Below, in pieces: positions 1-5,252 of a stretch of DNA of 5,252 nt. The notes under the pieces were generated by a model. The model worked only from the letters and a program-made list of their open reading frames with translations, was not told where the DNA came from and did not search any database. Origin of the DNA: Oscillospiraceae bacterium (GTDB taxonomy: Bacteria > Bacillota_A > Clostridia > Oscillospirales > Oscillospiraceae); the NCBI GenBank assembly GCA_016302005.1, contig JAEDOK010000112.1, positions 1 to 5,252 of the forward strand, read 5' to 3'. The position numbers were made by a program, and so were the translations under genes. Position 1 is the first letter of the stretch, and each line of letters starts with the position of its first letter.

Positions 1-190
1 GTTCCCCTGTACCGTCTGCCGCTGCGCGGACGGCACGCCCGGTGGTCGTGCCCTACGACCCTCGAATGCACCCCACCGTAGGGCGCGACGACTCGGCGCG
101 CCGGTGCAGGAACTACCAACCTCGTACAAACCTGTTCCCCTGTACTGTCTGCCGCTTCGCGGTCGGCGGGGACATGTCCCCGCCCTACAG
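1..190. repeat. Modular palindromic repeat array 1 (right part)
   Basis: Non-coding array, cut by the left window edge. Visible modules in order: a 21-nt imperfect palindromic core at 32-52 followed by CTAC; a 29-nt linker (53-81) ending in GTAG; an inverted 21-nt core at 82-102; the flank GGTGCAGGAACTACC (103-117); a stretch ending in CCGCTTCGCGG; and a perfect 20-nt palindrome GGCGGGGACATGTCCCCGCC at 165-184, closed by CTACAG (185-190). Positions 76-117 are identical to 1767-1808, and the surrounding sequence aligns with array 2 at lower identity. The spacing from the first core to the 165-184 core (133 nt) matches that in array 2 (134 nt). Open reading frames that cross it are by-products of the repeat. 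Confidence 0.85.
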
Positions 191-213
191 ATGTTGTATG
201 CAGTTTTTCCTTT

Positions 214-235
214 GGGCGGGCGACGCTGCCCGCCC
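214..235 (-). terminator. GC-rich hairpin after the small membrane-protein gene
   Basis: GGGCGGGC (214-221) pairs perfectly with GCCCGCCC (228-235) around a 6-nt loop. On the minus strand it begins 13 nt past the stop codon of the small gene, where a transcript end would be expected. No U-run follows, because the minus-strand sequence continues AAAGGAAAAAC. It is therefore not a canonical intrinsic terminator; it may instead stabilise the 3' end or be another palindromic repeat module. Confidence 0.35.
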
Positions 236-248
236 GTATGGGGTGTCA

Positions 249-401
249 TTACTGCACCATGTTCGTGACCGACTGCTCCAGCTTATCGACGGCTTTCTGC
301 GCTTTTTTCCGTGCCTGGGACTGCTGCGGCAGCATCAATGCGACTACGCCGCCGGCTGCCATTCCCAAGCCGAGGGTCAGCAAAAATCCTTTGACCTGCA
401 T
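249..401 (-). CDS. Small YtxH-like single-pass membrane protein (50 aa)
   Basis: The protein has a short hydrophobic, glycine- and alanine-rich segment (about residues 5-25, containing LLTLGLGMAAGGVVALML) followed by a basic amphipathic helix (about 28-45, with RKKAQKAVDK). This layout resembles YtxH-like proteins, which usually begin with a glycine-rich membrane helix followed by a charged helical region. The family role is poorly defined (general or envelope stress in some Firmicutes), so no function is assigned. The frame stays open upstream to 614, but the ATG at 399-401 is chosen because a strong GGGAGGT ribosome binding site lies 7 nt before it. The extra upstream codons would run antisense into the start of the phosphatase gene. 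It is divergent from that gene across about 150 nt. No clear promoter could be assigned to it. Confidence 0.72.
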   Translation of the reverse strand: MQVKGFLLTLGLGMAAGGVVALMLPQQSQARKKAQKAVDKLEQSVTNMVQ

Positions 402-408
402 GATGGTT

Positions 409-415
409 ACCTCCC
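409..415 (-). promoter_or_regulatory. Ribosome binding site of the small membrane protein
   Basis: Minus-strand GGGAGGT with 7 nt to the ATG at 401. It decides the start, since the open frame extends another 213 nt upstream without a comparable site. Confidence 0.75.
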
Positions 416-492
416 GATGATAAAAATTGAACCGCGTGGCGGGAATAGTTTGCCCCGCTGCGCGGAAAAAACGCAAAAAGTCGGAAACTGTC

Positions 493-521
493 TTTTCTTT
501 GCTGCCGTTCTGTGGTATACT
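493..521 (+). promoter_or_regulatory. Probable sigma-A promoter of the phosphatase-GNAT gene
   Basis: TATACT at 516-521 matches the -10 consensus at five of six positions and is preceded by a TG-containing stretch (TGTGG). The -35 box is weak: TTTTCT at 493-498 with a 17-nt spacer. The transcript would begin near 528, leaving a leader of about 24 nt before the ATG at 552. The ribosome binding site is also weak (GGTGA, 543-547), which suggests modest expression. Confidence 0.55.
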
Positions 522-551
522 TTTTAAAAATATGCAGAAAACGGTGATTTT

Positions 552-1562
552 ATGACGACGATTTATTTGATCCGCCACGCCGAGGCGGAGGGGAATGTGT
601 TCCGCCGCCTGCACGGGCAGTATGACTCCAATGTCACGCCCAACGGCTTAAAGCAGATCGCGGCGCTGGCGAAGCGGTTTGAAAGCATCCCCGTCGACGC
701 GGTGTACGCCAGCGACTTAACGCGCACCTGTACGACGGCGGGCGCGGTCTACAAACCGAAAAACCTCCCGCTCAACAAAGAACCGCGCTTTCGGGAGCTG
801 AACTGCGGCGTGTGGGAGGATCTTCCCTTCGGCTGGCTCGACCACACCGACCCGGAGCGCAACCGCGCCTTTTCCCACGACCCGCAGAACTGGTCGGTGG
901 AGGGCAGCGAAGGCTTTGCCACCTATACGGGGCGCTTTTTGGAGGCGTTGGAGGAGGTTGCCCGCCGCCACGAGGGGCAGACCGTCGCAATTTTCTCCCA
1001 CGGTATGGTGCTGCGGGGCGTGCAGCAGCGGCTGTTTTTTCCCGAAAAGCGCGATTTGCCCCACAGCGAGAACACCGCCGTGACCAAGCTCCTTTGGGAC
1101 GGTGCGGGCTACCGGTTGGAATATTTAAACGACGCGTCCCATTTGCCGTTGGAAATTTCCACCTTGGGCAGACAGCAGTGGTGGCGCGGCGGCGAGCACA
1201 AGGATCATAATATGTGGTATCATGACCCTGAAACGACCGACGCGCCCCTGCTTGCCGCCCTCGATGTCCCGGCGGGAGAGGTCACCCGCGTTTCGATGCT
1301 TGTGGATACGCCCACGGGCGCGGTCACCCTGCGCAGCTTGGACGCGGAGACGGACGAGCTTGTGCACCTCGCCGTTCTGCCGGAGTATCGCGGCAAGGGC
1401 TTTTCCGCGCAGCTTTTAGGCGAAGCGGTCAGCCTTGCCAGAAAACGCGGCAAGCGCTTCCTGCAGCTCGGTGCGCCGGCAGAGCACCCCGCTGCGAAAA
1501 GGCTCTTTGCGACCTACGGCTTTGCAGAGGACACCCTATCCCTGCAGCCTGTGATCCGATAA
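552..1562 (+). CDS. Histidine phosphatase-GNAT acetyltransferase fusion protein
   Basis: Two domains in 336 residues. Residues 1 to about 200 form a histidine phosphatase (phosphoglycerate mutase-like) domain. LIRHAEAEGN carries R8 and the phospho-accepting H9 (RHA rather than the commoner RHG). SDLTRT supplies R58, RELNCGVWE supplies E82, and FSHG supplies the second catalytic histidine H150. The catalytic set therefore looks complete. Residues 201-230 form a linker (STLGRQQWWRGG and following). Residues about 230-336 resemble a GNAT domain: VHLAVLPEYRGKGFSAQLL holds the acetyl-CoA loop R280-G-K-G283, with serine where the motif usually ends in G or A, then a C-terminal LFATYGF strand-turn typical of GNATs. 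It is cytosolic, with no signal peptide. Substrates of both halves are unknown. It is transcribed alone, with a promoter before it and a terminator directly after it. Confidence 0.92.
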   Translation: MTTIYLIRHAEAEGNVFRRLHGQYDSNVTPNGLKQIAALAKRFESIPVDAVYASDLTRTCTTAGAVYKPKNLPLNKEPRFRELNCGVWEDLPFGWLDHTDPERNRAFSHDPQNWSVEGSEGFATYTGRFLEALEEVARRHEGQTVAIFSHGMVLRGVQQRLFFPEKRDLPHSENTAVTKLLWDGAGYRLEYLNDASHLPLEISTLGRQQWWRGGEHKDHNMWYHDPETTDAPLLAALDVPAGEVTRVSMLVDTPTGAVTLRSLDAETDELVHLAVLPEYRGKGFSAQLLGEAVSLARKRGKRFLQLGAPAEHPAAKRLFATYGFAEDTLSLQPVIR

Positions 1563-1565
1563 TGC

Positions 1566-1604
1566 AAAATCACCTCTCCCACGGAACGGGAGGGGTGATT
1601 TTTT
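1566..1604 (+). terminator. Intrinsic terminator of the phosphatase-GNAT gene
   Basis: The left arm at 1566-1580 pairs with 1588-1602 over 15 positions, with a single G-U wobble and a 7-nt loop (ACGGAAC). A run of six T residues (1599-1604) ends the structure. It begins 4 nt past the TAA stop. The A-run on the left arm would also give a partial U-run on the opposite strand, so some bidirectional activity is possible. Confidence 0.92.
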
Positions 1605-1636
1605 ATCCATACACACTACGAAAAACAAAACAGCCT

Positions 1637-1995
1637 CTGTAGGGCGGGGACATGTCCCCGCCGTGGCAGCTACGATTCTGCTTACAGTATCGTCAACTCG
1701 TGCGGATGCCGCTTACGCGGTCGGCGGGGACATGTCCCCGCCCTACAACCGTGGAATGTAGCCTCGCCGTAGGGCGCGACGACTCGGCGCGCCGGTGCAG
1801 GAACTACCGAGTGCGTACAAGCTCGTTCGTTTATACCGTCTGCCGCTTACGCGGTCGGCGGGGGGACGCTTGCGAGCGCCGCCTGTGGCGGAGAAAGCGA
1901 GCAAGAAGGAGTGGCAGAATCAAGGCGATTGACAAGTGGGCTTTGCCCACGCAGACAGAGCCGCTGATTCAACAGGACATGTCCCCGCCCTACAG
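1637..1995. repeat. Modular palindromic repeat array 2, with terminal inverted repeats
   Basis: This fills most of the gene-free interval between the convergent phosphatase and lipoprotein genes (1605-2036). Modules in order: GTAG plus palindrome GGCGGGGACATGTCCCCGCC (1643-1662); a 60-nt spacer; the same palindrome at 1723-1742; a 30-nt CTAC...GTAG linker (1743-1772); a 21-nt inverted core (1773-1793) identical to that at 82-102; the flank GGTGCAGGAACTACC (1794-1808); then a 1857 core that begins normally but is interrupted, with its right half resuming at 1975-1989 before CTACAG. The outer ends, 1637-1657 and 1975-1995, are exact 21-nt inverted repeats of one another. No target-site duplication is visible outside them, and no transposase is encoded. 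The + strand stays open from 1652 to 2098, but only because of the repeats. Confidence 0.85.
1864..1974. other. Segment interrupting a palindromic repeat core
   Basis: About 110 nt separate the left half of a palindromic core (from 1857) from its right half (1975-1989). Inside are three small hairpins: CGCT/AGCG (1867-1870 with 1875-1878), CCGCC/GGCGG (1879-1883 with 1887-1891) and GTGGGC/GCCCAC with a TTT loop (1936-1950). It holds no convincing gene. It could be an insertion or the product of recombination between repeat copies. The exact left breakpoint is uncertain because it falls in a run of G. Confidence 0.5.
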
Positions 1996-2036
1996 CATAT
2001 TTCATAGCAATGACACGATAGGTGGTGCGGTCCGTA

Positions 2037-3347
2037 TTACAGCCAATCGAGGAGTACCGCCGCGTCGTAATTTCCGTTGTAGAAATCCGCCTTGCTGATC
2101 CGATAGTAGTTGTACTCGTCCAAATAGCCCTGACAGATAAAGTCGTCGTCCGTCTCCGCGAGCAGGTAAAAGGGTCTGCGCCGTACGTCCTGCCAGTATT
2201 GATGGGTCACGCCCGTGGCGATCTCGTACCGGAAATAGCCCTCGTCCGTCTCGTAGAATATGCGCCCGTCCAAACAGGTCATATAGGTGATACCGCTCTG
2301 CTCAAACAGGAATTCACCGGTCTGCGTCGCGGGATCATAGACCTTGACATATTTTCTGTCATAGAAGTAATAGAGCTTTCCGCCGTAGAACTGATTGAAA
2401 TTGTAAAGATGCAGCTCATGCTGCCAATCATTGTAGGCAAAGGCTTCTCCGCAGTCGGGGGACTCCTCCAAGGGATACTCCAGCATCGTCCAGCCATGCA
2501 GATTGCGGGAATAGGTGTCGTAATTCCAGCCATAGTCGGCGAAGTTCGCGTAGGCGGGATACTCCTGCCCGGAGGTCGGGAGATGGTAAGCGACGATGAG
2601 GGAGGTCTCGTCCATGCCCCAGAGATTATATACCCCGCCATACTCCATCTCGCGCTCTAACACGGTAACCATTGTGCCCTCCGCGAGGTCAAAGGCGAGA
2701 ATGCGCTGCTGCTTTGCCGCAATGGATTCCTCAGAGGCAGCGGAAGGCGCAAGCGTATAGCAGAGGACCGCTTTCTCCCCGCACAGCATAACGCCGCCGA
2801 GGGAGGCAACCCTGTCCCCCATGTCCGCCGCGTAGATCGTCTCCCGCTCGCCCGTGGTCAGGTCGAGGGAGAAAAAGGAGAGCGTGACCCATTCATCGCA
2901 GTTGTTTTGCGCGCCGCCTGCAAAATAGGCCTTGCCGTTGTGAATGCCGAAAACGATCCCGTTAATATCTTCGGCAATATAGGCGTCGCAGTTTTCGTCA
3001 TAGTGGGGGCAGTTTTTCTTGTTGCAGCAGACGGTGAGCTTGCTGTCTGCCATGTCGTAGCGCTGGAGGAATGCGGCATGCAGCCGATAGATCGCGTCGC
3101 CGGTGCGTGCGGAATCCCTTCCGAGCCGCACGGCGGTCAGGTCGGCGGGATAGGTGGTAAGCTCGGTCGGCTCGGAGAGGGAGGGGGTGGGAACCGCCTC
3201 CGTGCTCTCCGTCGTCGGCTCCGTCAAAGTCGATTCCTCGGACGGCACATCCGTCTCCCCCGTCGGCGCGGAATAGGCGGGAACGGACTCCCCGCAGGCG
3301 GTCAGAAGCAAAAGGATTAGTAACAGAAAAGGAATCACGCGTTTCAT
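2037..3347 (-). CDS. Secreted lipoprotein, probable beta-propeller-like domain
   Basis: The N-terminus MKRVIPFLLLILLLLTAC is a lipoprotein signal peptide with lipobox LTAC, so C18 would be lipidated and the protein anchored outside the membrane. Residues about 19-65 are a Ser/Thr/Pro/Glu-rich linker. The remainder (about 70-436) is rich in Tyr, Trp, Asp and Gly. It repeats strand-turn units such as GKAYFAGG, GGKLYYFYDRKYVKVYDPATQ and GRIFYETDEGYFRYEIATG, which is the pattern of propeller-like lipoproteins common in Clostridia. A cluster C107, C108, C113, H115, C120 could bind a metal or form disulfides. The ATG is set by a full AAGGAGGT site 6 nt upstream (3354-3361). It lies downstream of the sigma/anti-sigma pair on the same strand, 251 nt away. 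I do not recognise a specific function. No U-run terminator follows; array 2 begins 41 nt past the stop. Confidence 0.88.
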   Translation of the reverse strand: MKRVIPFLLLILLLLTACGESVPAYSAPTGETDVPSEESTLTEPTTESTEAVPTPSLSEPTELTTYPADLTAVRLGRDSARTGDAIYRLHAAFLQRYDMADSKLTVCCNKKNCPHYDENCDAYIAEDINGIVFGIHNGKAYFAGGAQNNCDEWVTLSFFSLDLTTGERETIYAADMGDRVASLGGVMLCGEKAVLCYTLAPSAASEESIAAKQQRILAFDLAEGTMVTVLEREMEYGGVYNLWGMDETSLIVAYHLPTSGQEYPAYANFADYGWNYDTYSRNLHGWTMLEYPLEESPDCGEAFAYNDWQHELHLYNFNQFYGGKLYYFYDRKYVKVYDPATQTGEFLFEQSGITYMTCLDGRIFYETDEGYFRYEIATGVTHQYWQDVRRRPFYLLAETDDDFICQGYLDEYNYYRISKADFYNGNYDAAVLLDWL

Positions 3348-3367
3348 AAAAAGACCTCCTTTGAGAT

Positions 3368-3396
3368 AGTATGGATGTGGGGGATTTTTCAGTGAA
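3368..3396 (-). promoter_or_regulatory. Weak candidate promoter of the lipoprotein gene
   Basis: On the minus strand, TTCACT (3391-3396) and CATACT (3368-3373) are separated by 17 nt, each matching the sigma-A consensus at four of six positions. The -35 candidate is formed by the first unit of the AGTGAAY heptad repeat. The call is tentative; transcription could also read through from the sigma operon. Confidence 0.3.
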
Positions 3397-3425
3397 CAGT
3401 GAATAGAGAATAGTGAATAGTGAAC
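3391..3425. repeat. Tandem heptad repeat, five copies of AGTGAAY
   Basis: Exactly five contiguous 7-nt units: AGTGAAC, AGTGAAT, AGAGAAT, AGTGAAT, AGTGAAC. The middle unit has one substitution. The array immediately precedes the palindromic repeat block at 3429-3541. Two similar units precede the related block at 5173-5252, so the copy number differs between loci. Confidence 0.85.
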
Positions 3426-3428
3426 AAC

Positions 3429-3541
3429 GAAGGAGCGCTCCGCGCGGATTCCAAACGCGGGCGGCTAATAGCCGCCCCTACGAGAGATTTCGCAGTTCAC
3501 GCCGTAGTGGCGGCTATCAGCCGCCCGGTGTAGGAACTATC
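3429..3541. repeat. Modular palindromic repeat block with paired inverted cores
   Basis: The block starts with GAAGGAGCGCTCC (3429-3441, containing the palindrome GGAGCGCTCC). Core GGGCGGCTAATAGCCGCCC follows at 3459-3477, then a 30-nt linker from CTAC (3478) to GTAG (3507), an inverted version of the core at 3508-3526, and the flank GGTGTAGGAACTATC (3527-3541). The linker and flank follow the plan of arrays 1 and 2 although the core sequence differs. The first half recurs at 5173-5252. Confidence 0.85.
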
Positions 3542-3580
3542 CTCCAACCAAAACAGACTACCCACAGGCGCGTCAGGGAT

Positions 3581-3605
3581 GCCGTAGGCAACAGCGTTCT
3601 ACGGC
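3581..3605 (-). other. Hairpin spanning the stop codon of the anti-sigma-like gene
   Basis: GCCGTAG (3581-3587) pairs exactly with CTACGGC (3599-3605) around an 11-nt loop. The TAG stop codon of the upstream gene lies in the stem. No U-run follows on the minus strand, so it is not a standard terminator; it may be a 3'-end stabilising or attenuating hairpin. Confidence 0.5.
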
Positions 3606-4528
3606 AGCAGCTCGTCGAGGAGGGGGGTGAGCAGGGTCAGGGGTGGGGTATTGGTGTTGGAGCTTGTGCGCACTTCGGCAGAATAGCCGATGCCGTTTTC
3701 GCACCATGCGGCGCAGCCGAAGCCGTTATAGCCCTTTTGCGGGACGTTTTCCAGCAGGAGGATGCTCTTTCCTGCGGCGGTCAGCAATCCGCTTTCGTGC
3801 AGTGCCCCCTCTTTTTTATAGGAATACACCCGCCGCACGCCCTCCTGTTGGGCAAACTCCGGCGTGATCGCGAGATAGACCGTCAAGCCGCCCTCCCGCA
3901 CCACGGCGGCATGCAGGGCATTCTCTCCGTCGCCGCGCCGGAACGGGAAATACAGCTCCACGCCGTCGGGGGTCACGCGCCCCGTCTCGGCAAATTCCTT
4001 CTCCGCGCGGTCGATATCGGACACGACGAGGGTCGCGTACGCCCCGGAGATCAGCTCGTCCATGGGTGGACTGTGCATCAATCGGATGCCGAAATACGCC
4101 TCCGCGCCTGCGACAGAGCCGAGATCGAGGCGTTTCCCCGCCGCGTTCGTCAGCTTTGCGCCGGTAAAATAGGAATAGTCATAGGAAAAATCGCGCCACG
4201 CCTCCGTCAGCGCAGTCACCGCCTCCTCGGGCAGCGTGAGGTTGGCGGGCTGTAGGGAGAATTCGATGTCGGCGGTGTAGTATTCCAGCGCCTCCACCTG
4301 CTGCCCCTGCGGGAGAGACAGCCCGATATCCTCTAATCTGACGGTATTCTTCCCGTGGAGAACGCGCACGCCGACAGAGACCGCCAGCACCGTGCTTGCC
4401 AGCAGCGCAATGATCGCGGCTGCCATTGCAACGCGCACAAGACGGCGCGGCTTTTTTGTGCGCGGCGCGTCTTGCAGCAGGTTATCGTCCAAATCGCTCA
4501 GCGCTTGCAGGATGTCCCATTCGTTCAT
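3599..4528 (-). CDS. Single-pass membrane protein, probable anti-sigma factor
   Basis: The protein has 309 residues. The N-terminal segment MNEWDILQALSDLDDNLLQD (1-20) is acidic and probably helical, a plausible sigma-binding region. Basic KKPRRLVR (25-32) then precedes one membrane helix (about 33-53), which predicts N-inside, C-outside topology. Residues 55-309 form an extracytoplasmic domain that probably senses a signal. Near its end GCAAWCENGIGYS holds C272 and C276 (CxxxC). The open frame continues upstream to 4921, inside the sigma gene. The ATG at 4526-4528 is chosen because it overlaps the sigma stop in ATGA, has AAGGAGGG 9 nt upstream (4538-4545), and gives a sensible protein. Coupled translation with the sigma factor is the main evidence for an anti-sigma role; I recognise no named zinc-binding anti-sigma domain. 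A regulator acting by another mechanism is possible. Confidence 0.82.
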   Translation of the reverse strand: MNEWDILQALSDLDDNLLQDAPRTKKPRRLVRVAMAAAIIALLASTVLAVSVGVRVLHGKNTVRLEDIGLSLPQGQQVEALEYYTADIEFSLQPANLTLPEEAVTALTEAWRDFSYDYSYFTGAKLTNAAGKRLDLGSVAGAEAYFGIRLMHSPPMDELISGAYATLVVSDIDRAEKEFAETGRVTPDGVELYFPFRRGDGENALHAAVVREGGLTVYLAITPEFAQQEGVRRVYSYKKEGALHESGLLTAAGKSILLLENVPQKGYNGFGCAAWCENGIGYSAEVRTSSNTNTPPLTLLTPLLDELLP

Positions 4529-5070
4529 GGCGTGTAGCCCTCCTTTTCCAGCCGTTTTCGGAGCTTTTTCCGCAGGCGGGAGAGTATCGCGGAGACGCGG
4601 TTTTCCTGCCAGCCCCGCAGGGCGGCAAGCTCTCCGACGCTGTAGCCGTACCAGTAGCGCTTGACGAACAGCTCCCGCTCCTCCGGCTTCAGACCGCGCA
4701 CGAACCCGTTCAGCACCTCCCGCAGAAAGACTGCGTCGGTTTCGCGCTCCCGCAGCGGGTCGGGGATACACTCGGCAAGCTCGTCGAGCAGGACGGTCAC
4801 GCCGCTGCGTTTCTGCGCACCCTCCCGTTCCAGATAGTGCAGGGCGATATTGCGCGTGACCCGGGCGAGGTAGGCGCGCAGGTCCGTTGGGACAGCCTCG
4901 CTCCGCCATACCGCCAGCCAAACATCACTGACGCACTCCTCCGCCGCCTGTTCGCTGCGCAAAAGCCGCCGCGCGATGGTGAGGCAATAGACCCCGTATC
5001 GGTCGCGCAGGTGCAGCAGCGCTTCCTCATCCTTCCGCGCAAGCTGCGCAACGATCTGCGTCTGTGTCAC
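4525..5070 (-). CDS. ECF-type RNA polymerase sigma factor
   Basis: The protein has 181 residues, a usual length for group 4 (ECF) sigma factors, with regions 2 and 4 only. Region 2 covers about residues 20-85: YCLTIARRLL, then EECVSDVWLAVW (the core-polymerase and -10 contact helix), then LRAYLARVTRNIALHYL (region 2.4-like). Region 4 covers about 125-175: LKPEERELFVKRYWYGYSV leads into the helix-turn-helix ELAALRGWQENRVSAILSRL and a basic tail. It would direct polymerase to a regulon promoter and be held inactive by the membrane protein encoded next. The start is GTG (5068-5070), supported by GGGAGGTG at 5076-5083; no methionine codon lies further in. The stop overlaps the next start by 4 nt. 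The promoter region suggests autoregulation. It lacks the extra C-terminal domain seen in some ECF groups. Confidence 0.93.
   Translation of the reverse strand: MTQTQIVAQLARKDEEALLHLRDRYGVYCLTIARRLLRSEQAAEECVSDVWLAVWRSEAVPTDLRAYLARVTRNIALHYLEREGAQKRSGVTVLLDELAECIPDPLRERETDAVFLREVLNGFVRGLKPEERELFVKRYWYGYSVGELAALRGWQENRVSAILSRLRKKLRKRLEKEGYTP
4538..4545 (-). promoter_or_regulatory. Ribosome binding site of the anti-sigma-like gene, inside the sigma gene
   Basis: Minus-strand AAGGAGGG, 9 nt before the ATG at 4528. It lies in the last codons of the sigma gene and fixes the downstream start, supporting coupled translation. Confidence 0.8.
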
Positions 5071-5075
5071 GAGGT

Positions 5076-5083
5076 CACCTCCC
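5076..5083 (-). promoter_or_regulatory. Ribosome binding site of the sigma gene (GTG start)
   Basis: Minus-strand GGGAGGTG; its GGAGG core lies 7 nt before the GTG at 5070. The strength of the site supports the non-ATG start. Confidence 0.8.
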
Positions 5084-5095
5084 TTGGGTCGTTCA

Positions 5096-5105
5096 AAAGC
5101 GCTTT
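5096..5105. repeat. Short palindrome in the sigma leader
   Basis: AAAGCGCTTT is a perfect 10-nt palindrome between the promoter and the ribosome binding site of the sigma gene. It could be an operator or chance. It shares the AGCGCT centre with the GGAGCGCTCC motifs of the nearby repeat blocks. Confidence 0.3.
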
Positions 5106-5108
5106 CAA

Positions 5109-5142
5109 CTATATAGACCGATTATAACACCGAAATGTGACA
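5109..5142 (-). promoter_or_regulatory. Overlapping housekeeping and ECF-like promoters of the sigma operon
   Basis: On the minus strand, a perfect TATAAT (5121-5126) is preceded by TGT, making an extended -10 box. No good -35 box is seen at 16-18 nt. Overlapping it are TGTCACATTT (5133-5142) and CGGTCTATATAG (5109-5120), with spacing that fits an ECF promoter. ECF-dependent promoters with a TGTCAC-type -35 and a CGTC-type -10 are known for some groups. Either promoter would start transcription roughly 40 nt before the GTG. The double arrangement would give basal expression plus autoactivation. Confidence 0.6.
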
Positions 5143-5162
5143 GGCGCGAGGAGAATTTTTTT

Positions 5163-5252
5163 GGTGAACAGTGAAGGAGCGCTCCCCGCCGATTAAAAAG
5201 CGGGCGGCTGATAGCCGCCCCTACGAGAAATCTCGCGCCTCACGCCGTAGGG
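5163..5252. repeat. Modular palindromic repeat block, cut by the right edge
   Basis: Two heptad units (GGTGAAC, AGTGAAG) run into GAAGGAGCGCTCC (5173-5185). Core GGGCGGCTGATAGCCGCCC follows at 5202-5220, then a 30-nt linker from CTAC (5221) to GTAG (5250). The last two bases (GG) are where the second, inverted core would begin. It is a diverged copy of the block at 3429-3510, in the same orientation. Confidence 0.85.

Follow-up and report, generated by a model that had tools for sequence, protein, structure and literature searches.

The stretch of Oscillospiraceae bacterium DNA analysed here (contig JAEDOK010000112.1, 5,252 nt, hereafter the window) carries repetitive extragenic palindromes (REPs), in which an unpaired GTAG tetranucleotide, the tag, stands 5′ of a palindromic core. 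We hold with high confidence that the repeats are GTAG-tagged REPs of an Oscillospiraceae-like bacterium, set in mirrored doublets that resemble bacterial interspersed mosaic elements (BIMEs), and that the single GTAG hairpin is probably recognised by HUH/Y1 transposases of the TnpA_REP/REP-associated tyrosine transposase (RAYT) kind. The tag, the hairpin, the pairing, the spacing and the mixing of cores were all observed, as were RAYT-like genes of the clostridial family that carry REPs of the same kind. To our surprise, two REPs lie inside the reading frame in at least 43 of the 70 clostridial RAYT-like genes inspected. Recognition, cleavage and movement of the REPs by RAYT-like proteins are proposed by analogy.

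Searching by script for an unpaired GTAG 5′ of a palindrome of 20-40 nt, we found nine REPs in the window, all of them intergenic; a split tenth was read by eye. The initial annotation had reported four linkers that start with CTAC and end with GTAG, and a script recovered them exactly, at 53-81 (29 nt), 1743-1772, 3478-3507 and 5221-5250 (30 nt each). Each linker opens with the tag of a minus-strand REP and closes with the tag of the next REP, so that a core-linker-core unit is a REP doublet with its tags inward. In the first unit, the minus-strand REP at 32-56 (21-nt imperfect core 32-52, CTAC 53-56) is joined through 57-77 to the plus-strand REP at 78-102 (GTAG 78-81, 21-nt imperfect core 82-102). 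Core 32-52, read on the opposite strand, is a base-pair-compensated version of core 82-102, and the two therefore form one class. The second unit joins a minus-strand REP at 1723-1746 (GGGGACATGTCCCC-type core 1723-1742, CTAC 1743-1746) through 1747-1768 to a plus-strand REP at 1769-1793 (GTAG 1769-1772, 21-nt imperfect core 1773-1793). The third runs from a minus-strand REP at 3459-3481 (GGCGGCTRATAGCCGCC-type core 3459-3477, CTAC 3478-3481) through 3482-3503 to a plus-strand REP at 3504-3525 (GTAG 3504-3507, core 3509-3525), and in an alignment its linker matches two units of another genome, described below, at 29 of 30 positions. The fourth has its minus-strand REP at 5202-5224 (GGCGGCTRATAGCCGCC-type core 5202-5220, CTAC 5221-5224), with the linker and closing GTAG at 5225-5250 and its right side beyond the window end. 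The core types of the window include GGGGACATGTCCCC, GGCTATYAGCC and GGCGCGACGACTCGGCGCGCC. Units with palindromes on both sides numbered three in the window, the fourth being cut, versus one in all 20 shuffles together, which kept base composition only.

The same REPs also form pairs with their tags outward, which the initial annotation had overlooked. A REPIN-like doublet of 111 nt with two different cores, identified by script and folding, spans 78-188 and ends in the minus-strand REP at 165-188 (core 165-184, CTAC 185-188). Another, of 108 nt and with identical cores, spans 1639-1746 and begins with the plus-strand REP at 1639-1662 (GTAG 1639-1642, core 1643-1662). The third outward pair, 1769-1993, is broken by about 111 bp: its minus-strand REP, the split one at 1857-1993, is of the GGGGACATGTCCCC type, with the core divided between 1857-1863 and 1975-1989 and CTAC at 1990-1993. 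The DNA that splits this core (1864-1974) contains GAATC...GATTC-like inverted bits, and an exact 19-nt piece of it occurred in none of 230 loci.

Scanning a collection of genome contigs with the linker pattern, we recovered three loci, and a single metagenome-assembled genome (MAG), Bacillota SUG1575 (G001), contains them all. In a 380-kb sample of SUG1575 together with the window, we then counted REP pairs with tags inward, hairpins on both sides and a linker of 22-67 nt. There were 21 such pairs, with linkers of 30 nt in 14 and 29 nt in three; the remaining four measured 24, 57, 62 and 66 nt. The near-constant length claimed in the initial annotation holds in this sample, where 17 of 21 linkers measure 29-30 nt (14 of 18 once the window's own three pairs are set aside) and there is no broad spread. 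Its second claim, that cores are exchanged between linkers, was also borne out. The cores within one pair were often of different types, and one linker type was joined to GGCTATCAGCC-type or GGATATTATCC-type cores.

The hairpins follow the tag. In the 380 kb of SUG1575, 61 of 1600 GTAG sites stood before a 6-bp stem (3.8% versus 0.9% overall), the second-highest hairpin rate of any tetranucleotide. The highest, TAGG, overlaps GTAG, and so do AGGG, TGTA and CGTA, which are also among the top six. The sample held 63 dispersed GTAG hairpins; intergenic location was tabulated for the window only. With the window and 40-kb samples of 20 further family genomes added, the survey came to 1.19 Mb and 162 GTAG hairpins, whose neighbours within 260 bp were arranged inward in 15 cases, outward in 27 and on the same strand in 12. 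This mirrored pairing is tag-specific, with 42 mirrored pairs for GTAG and between zero and two per arrangement for each of seven other tags. Counted in the 20 added genomes alone, neighbours within the same distance were outward in 18 cases (14 at 70-150 nt), inward in six (28, 37, 38, 38, 142 and 166 nt) and on the same strand in eight. An inward spacing of 29-30 nt was confined to SUG1575 and the window among the sampled genomes, so the constant inward linkers look like a local trait and the outward doublets like the common one. Evenly spaced REPs on the same strand were also seen, three at 189 bp in one genome (G062:C6:4888-5288) and four at 115 bp in another (G399:C70:47834-48201).

The initial annotation had called REP and BIME elements an analogy and had suggested looking for a REP-associated transposase. 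The likeness goes further, for besides the GTAG tag, the hairpin and the mirrored pairs, the family has RAYT-like genes that carry the same kind of REP. Pfam PF01797 gave three Y1_Tnp matches in SUG1575, two of them above the cut-off, and two of the three genes have REPs within the reading frame. We built a RAYT profile, A1, from six family proteins, five of them with an internal REP. It matched 171 of 400 family genomes at E ≤0.001, 131 of them below 1e-10; the weaker matches may be ordinary Y1 transposases. The family genes encode Y1 HUH transposases related to TnpA_REP, which is what we mean by RAYT-like. For the protein P0001, the sole sequence match among solved structures was 4er8, E. 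coli TnpA_REP (E 2e-9), which was also the first match in a fold search (E 8.9e-9). A homologue appears in one source under the name 'REP element-mobilizing transposase RayT'. Among phages, relatives of the transposase of locus L005 came down to one record (33% identity, E 2e-13).

We inspected 70 of these genes (30 loci and 40 more), out of many more matches in the 171 genomes. Because profile A1 rests mostly on proteins with an internal REP, the counts of internal REPs lean upwards, and the script for internal pairs required the mirrored, tags-outward orientation. Stricter parsing placed 62 of the 70 genes: 43 have in-frame REPs both before and after the HUH motif, five have the upstream REP alone, three the downstream one alone and 11 none inside, five of the last group having REPs on both gene flanks. 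Under looser parsing of 63 genes, 45 had both REPs inside and 12 none, and at least three of these 12 (L092, L113 and L139) still read like REP-encoded peptides. In the 43 genes (among loci L087-L156), the two REPs point their tags outward and lie 176-209 bp apart.

The two copies in a gene match each other. In the same 43 genes, cores agree at 92% within a gene versus 54% between genes, and the cores are diverse, with 34 upstream core strings in the 43 genes and 23 8-nt arms in 45. Permuting partners 5000 times gave at best 64%, versus an observed within-gene agreement of 94%. Across gene pairs, the two positions co-vary even when protein identity is removed (partial correlation 0.91). L127 and L103 have 66% protein identity, yet their cores are only 0.55 and 0.50 alike. 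The two copies are read in different frames and give different peptides (for example VGADIIRP versus, from the opposite strand, GRIISAPT), so protein constraint does not explain their agreement. In five of 45 genes the two cores are less than 85% alike, which means that single-sided core change occurs.

On a small number of genes, it may be that internal REPs are peculiar to this family and that flanking REPs are more widespread. In a phylum-wide draw of 149 genomes, some of which may belong to the same clostridial family, profile A1 gave six further good matches (L203-L208). Four of them (L204, L205, L207 and L208) have GTAG hairpins at both gene ends and L206 has one upstream only; L203 has a frame with stops and one GTAG hairpin inside. 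Loci L058-L077, mostly stronger Y1_Tnp matches, have few GTAG hairpins and, by position, none within the matched stretch. The same core, GGAACGGTCTTGACCGTTCC, stands beside a RAYT-like gene in two genomes (L136 and L204). We found no description of an in-frame REP pair in RAYT genes in the searched literature; the supplement of intragenic REPs in PMC3733652, a source available to us in part, might contain RAYT genes.

What do the internal REPs do? They may be tolerated, functionless insertions in two flexible loops, comparable to the intragenic REPs noted in the available part of PMC3733652, an explanation to which we give a real chance, if short of an even one. The AlphaFold2 model of P0001 (mean pLDDT, the predicted confidence per residue, 83) agrees with it: the stretch encoded by the first REP forms a loop of low confidence (residues 40-43 below 50), and that encoded by the second is coil, preceded and followed by a strand and a helix, at a gap in 4er8; REP-less genes of the same kind also exist. 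However, insertion by tolerance alone sits poorly with the recurrence of these positions in at least 43 of 70 genes, and with copies that agree even where close relatives have different cores, as in L127 and L103. We tentatively suggest instead, as a proposal that we rate as rather doubtful, that the substrate of a RAYT protein is written into its own gene, where it is translated and acts as an exchangeable key. Two cognate in-frame REPs around the HUH-coding segment would be replaced in concert and would couple the transposase to a REP type, and the genes would be re-keyed by the very process that exchanges cores in the window.

RAYT-like genes and dispersed copies of their cores keep company in part. 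In the 40-kb samples, the core of a gene was present in its own genome for seven of 23 genes, versus 6.7% of comparisons with other genomes. We also counted two core patterns genome-wide in 63 genomes, with the copies inside the gene excluded. Pattern one was dispersed in five of six gene-bearing genomes versus eight of the 57 without the gene (Fisher p 0.001); for pattern two the figures were four of five versus nine of 58 (p 0.005).

Several observations weigh against transposase-linked REPs as we describe them. Two genomes (G092 and G321) have the gene and zero dispersed copies, and others have copies with no core-bearing gene among those inspected (32 in G386, 11 in G366, 10 in G112, seven in G272 and six in G322). 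Exact-pattern searches for a RAYT-spaced pair of either of two window core types, the 21-nt type not among them, came back empty in 300 family genomes (0 of 300 each). Transposases of the kind that the initial annotation had suggested looking for occur in the family, though none turned up with these two window cores. The commonest SUG1575 core, of the GGCTATCAGCC type, was unmatched among the three Y1_Tnp genes of that MAG, which may be incomplete. A caution on the linker units themselves is that the bare pattern CTACN{18,28}GTAGKG occurred 55+54 times in the whole of SUG1575 versus 49+48 in the reversed control; because it barely exceeds the control, the signal is the length peak together with the flanking palindromes. 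No empty site and no movement came to light, and the moving unit may have its tags inward (the junction) or outward (the doublet).

The initial annotation had suggested that the core-linker-core unit is recognised or folded as one object. A stronger form of that idea, in which the whole tags-inward unit, about 120 nt long when its tails are counted, moves or folds as such, seems unlikely to us. Folding three inward units and two outward doublets of the window as single-stranded DNA, we find partial support for the original claim: the units with cores of the same class, 28-101 (z -2.2) and 3455-3530 (z -5.4), each give one long hairpin, and the mixed-core unit 1719-1795 (z -2.6) gives separate hairpins. 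The outward doublets behave in the same manner: 1639-1746, with identical cores, forms one long hairpin (z -10), and in 78-188, with different cores, each core folds alone (z -3.3). Conservation speaks for the inward unit, as a class-I linker is common to 18 units of SUG1575 and the window, conserved in length and sequence, with tails that are partly so (left GGAGCGCTCC...AAACGC, right GTGCAGGAACTACC). On the other hand, two of the 18 retain the linker and left tail and apparently lack the left core, and the 20 other genomes showed mostly outward pairs, with inward ones at other spacings. AGTGAACAGTGAAT-like 14-nt units at 3391-3432 and 5163-5176 adjoin class-I units, and similar stretches lie near the SUG1575 copies.

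It is highly improbable that the repeats are instead immobile and serve between genes as terminators, attenuators or structured RNA: the window REPs are intergenic and T-rich DNA follows one of them, the minus-strand core 5220-5202, but no Rfam family matched at gathering score, this core is the only REP among nine terminator-like sites, and the conserved GTAG, the mirrored pairing and the near-identical copies in another genome would be left unexplained.

The reading that we prefer, GTAG-tagged REPs served by RAYT-like transposases, finds its closest parallel in the GTAG super-family of REPs. As described in the available portion of Di Nocera et al. (2013; PMC3733652), these have GTAG at one end, a stem of 5-13 bp, dimers of either orientation (tags inside, TT; tags outside, HH) that are homo- or heterodimers, several types per genome with type-specific REPtrons, and some intragenic members. 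Three differences stand out. In that portion, TT dimers have, by rule of thumb, variable spacers, whereas the length here is near-constant; RAYT genes are described there as flanked or end-overlapped by REPs, whereas two lie in frame inside many of the genes here; and the words clostridi and firmicutes are absent from the text of PMC3733652. REPINs, as the accessible part of Bertels and Rainey (2011; PMC3116915) presents them, are inverted, spacered REP doublets tied to RAYTs, and we take the outward doublets as their equivalent. Compared with that account, several core types per genome, mixed-core doublets and a Bacillota host are different here.

From the part of Corneloup et al. (2021; PMC8266576) available to us, E. 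coli TnpA_REP of the REPtron (4er8) binds the GTAG hairpin on single strands and cleaves near CT, and the tetranucleotide is needed or aids site choice depending on the protein. The family proteins share with it the HUH motif, the fold, an aligned C-terminal part and a presumed GTAG hairpin substrate; 4er8 lacks an equivalent of the second REP-encoded stretch, and the first lies outside the aligned part. Rickettsia palindromic elements likewise stand in frame within proteins. However, going by the portions of PMC10969869 and PMC3733652 at hand, they occupy unrelated genes, whereas here a pair has set positions within the gene of the transposase presumed to be cognate.

The genes of the window itself say little about the host of the repeats. 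Pfam identifies 552-1562 as a histidine phosphatase-GNAT fusion and 4525-5070 (minus strand) as an extracytoplasmic function (ECF)-type sigma factor, and has no match for the two other window proteins. Named relatives of the 552-1562 protein are Oscillospiraceae (60-67% identity), and its best SUG1575 match has 29% identity. The product of 2037-3347 has weak matches only, in 35 of 400 genomes. Since the window-protein matches are weak, SUG1575 has the repeats in common with the window, and its closeness to the window host is not established.

Each REP is an unpaired GTAG followed by a hairpin of 17-22 nt, and the window has them in BIME-like arrays, tags-inward junctions of about 30 nt adjoining tags-outward doublets of about 110 nt. 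In the model that we propose, RAYT-like proteins would act on single GTAG hairpins, on single-stranded DNA. Because a single GTAG hairpin would be what the transposase recognises, doublets could spread as non-autonomous elements. Several REP types in one genome would give rise to mixed doublets, and cores might be exchanged by recombination between neighbouring copies or arrays.

How REP types arise, change in sequence and stay matched to their transposase is an open question of the field. A REP written inside the frame of a transposase is a direct record of gene-REP pairs, with dozens of cores in one family, and the question becomes testable through close genes that carry different cores.

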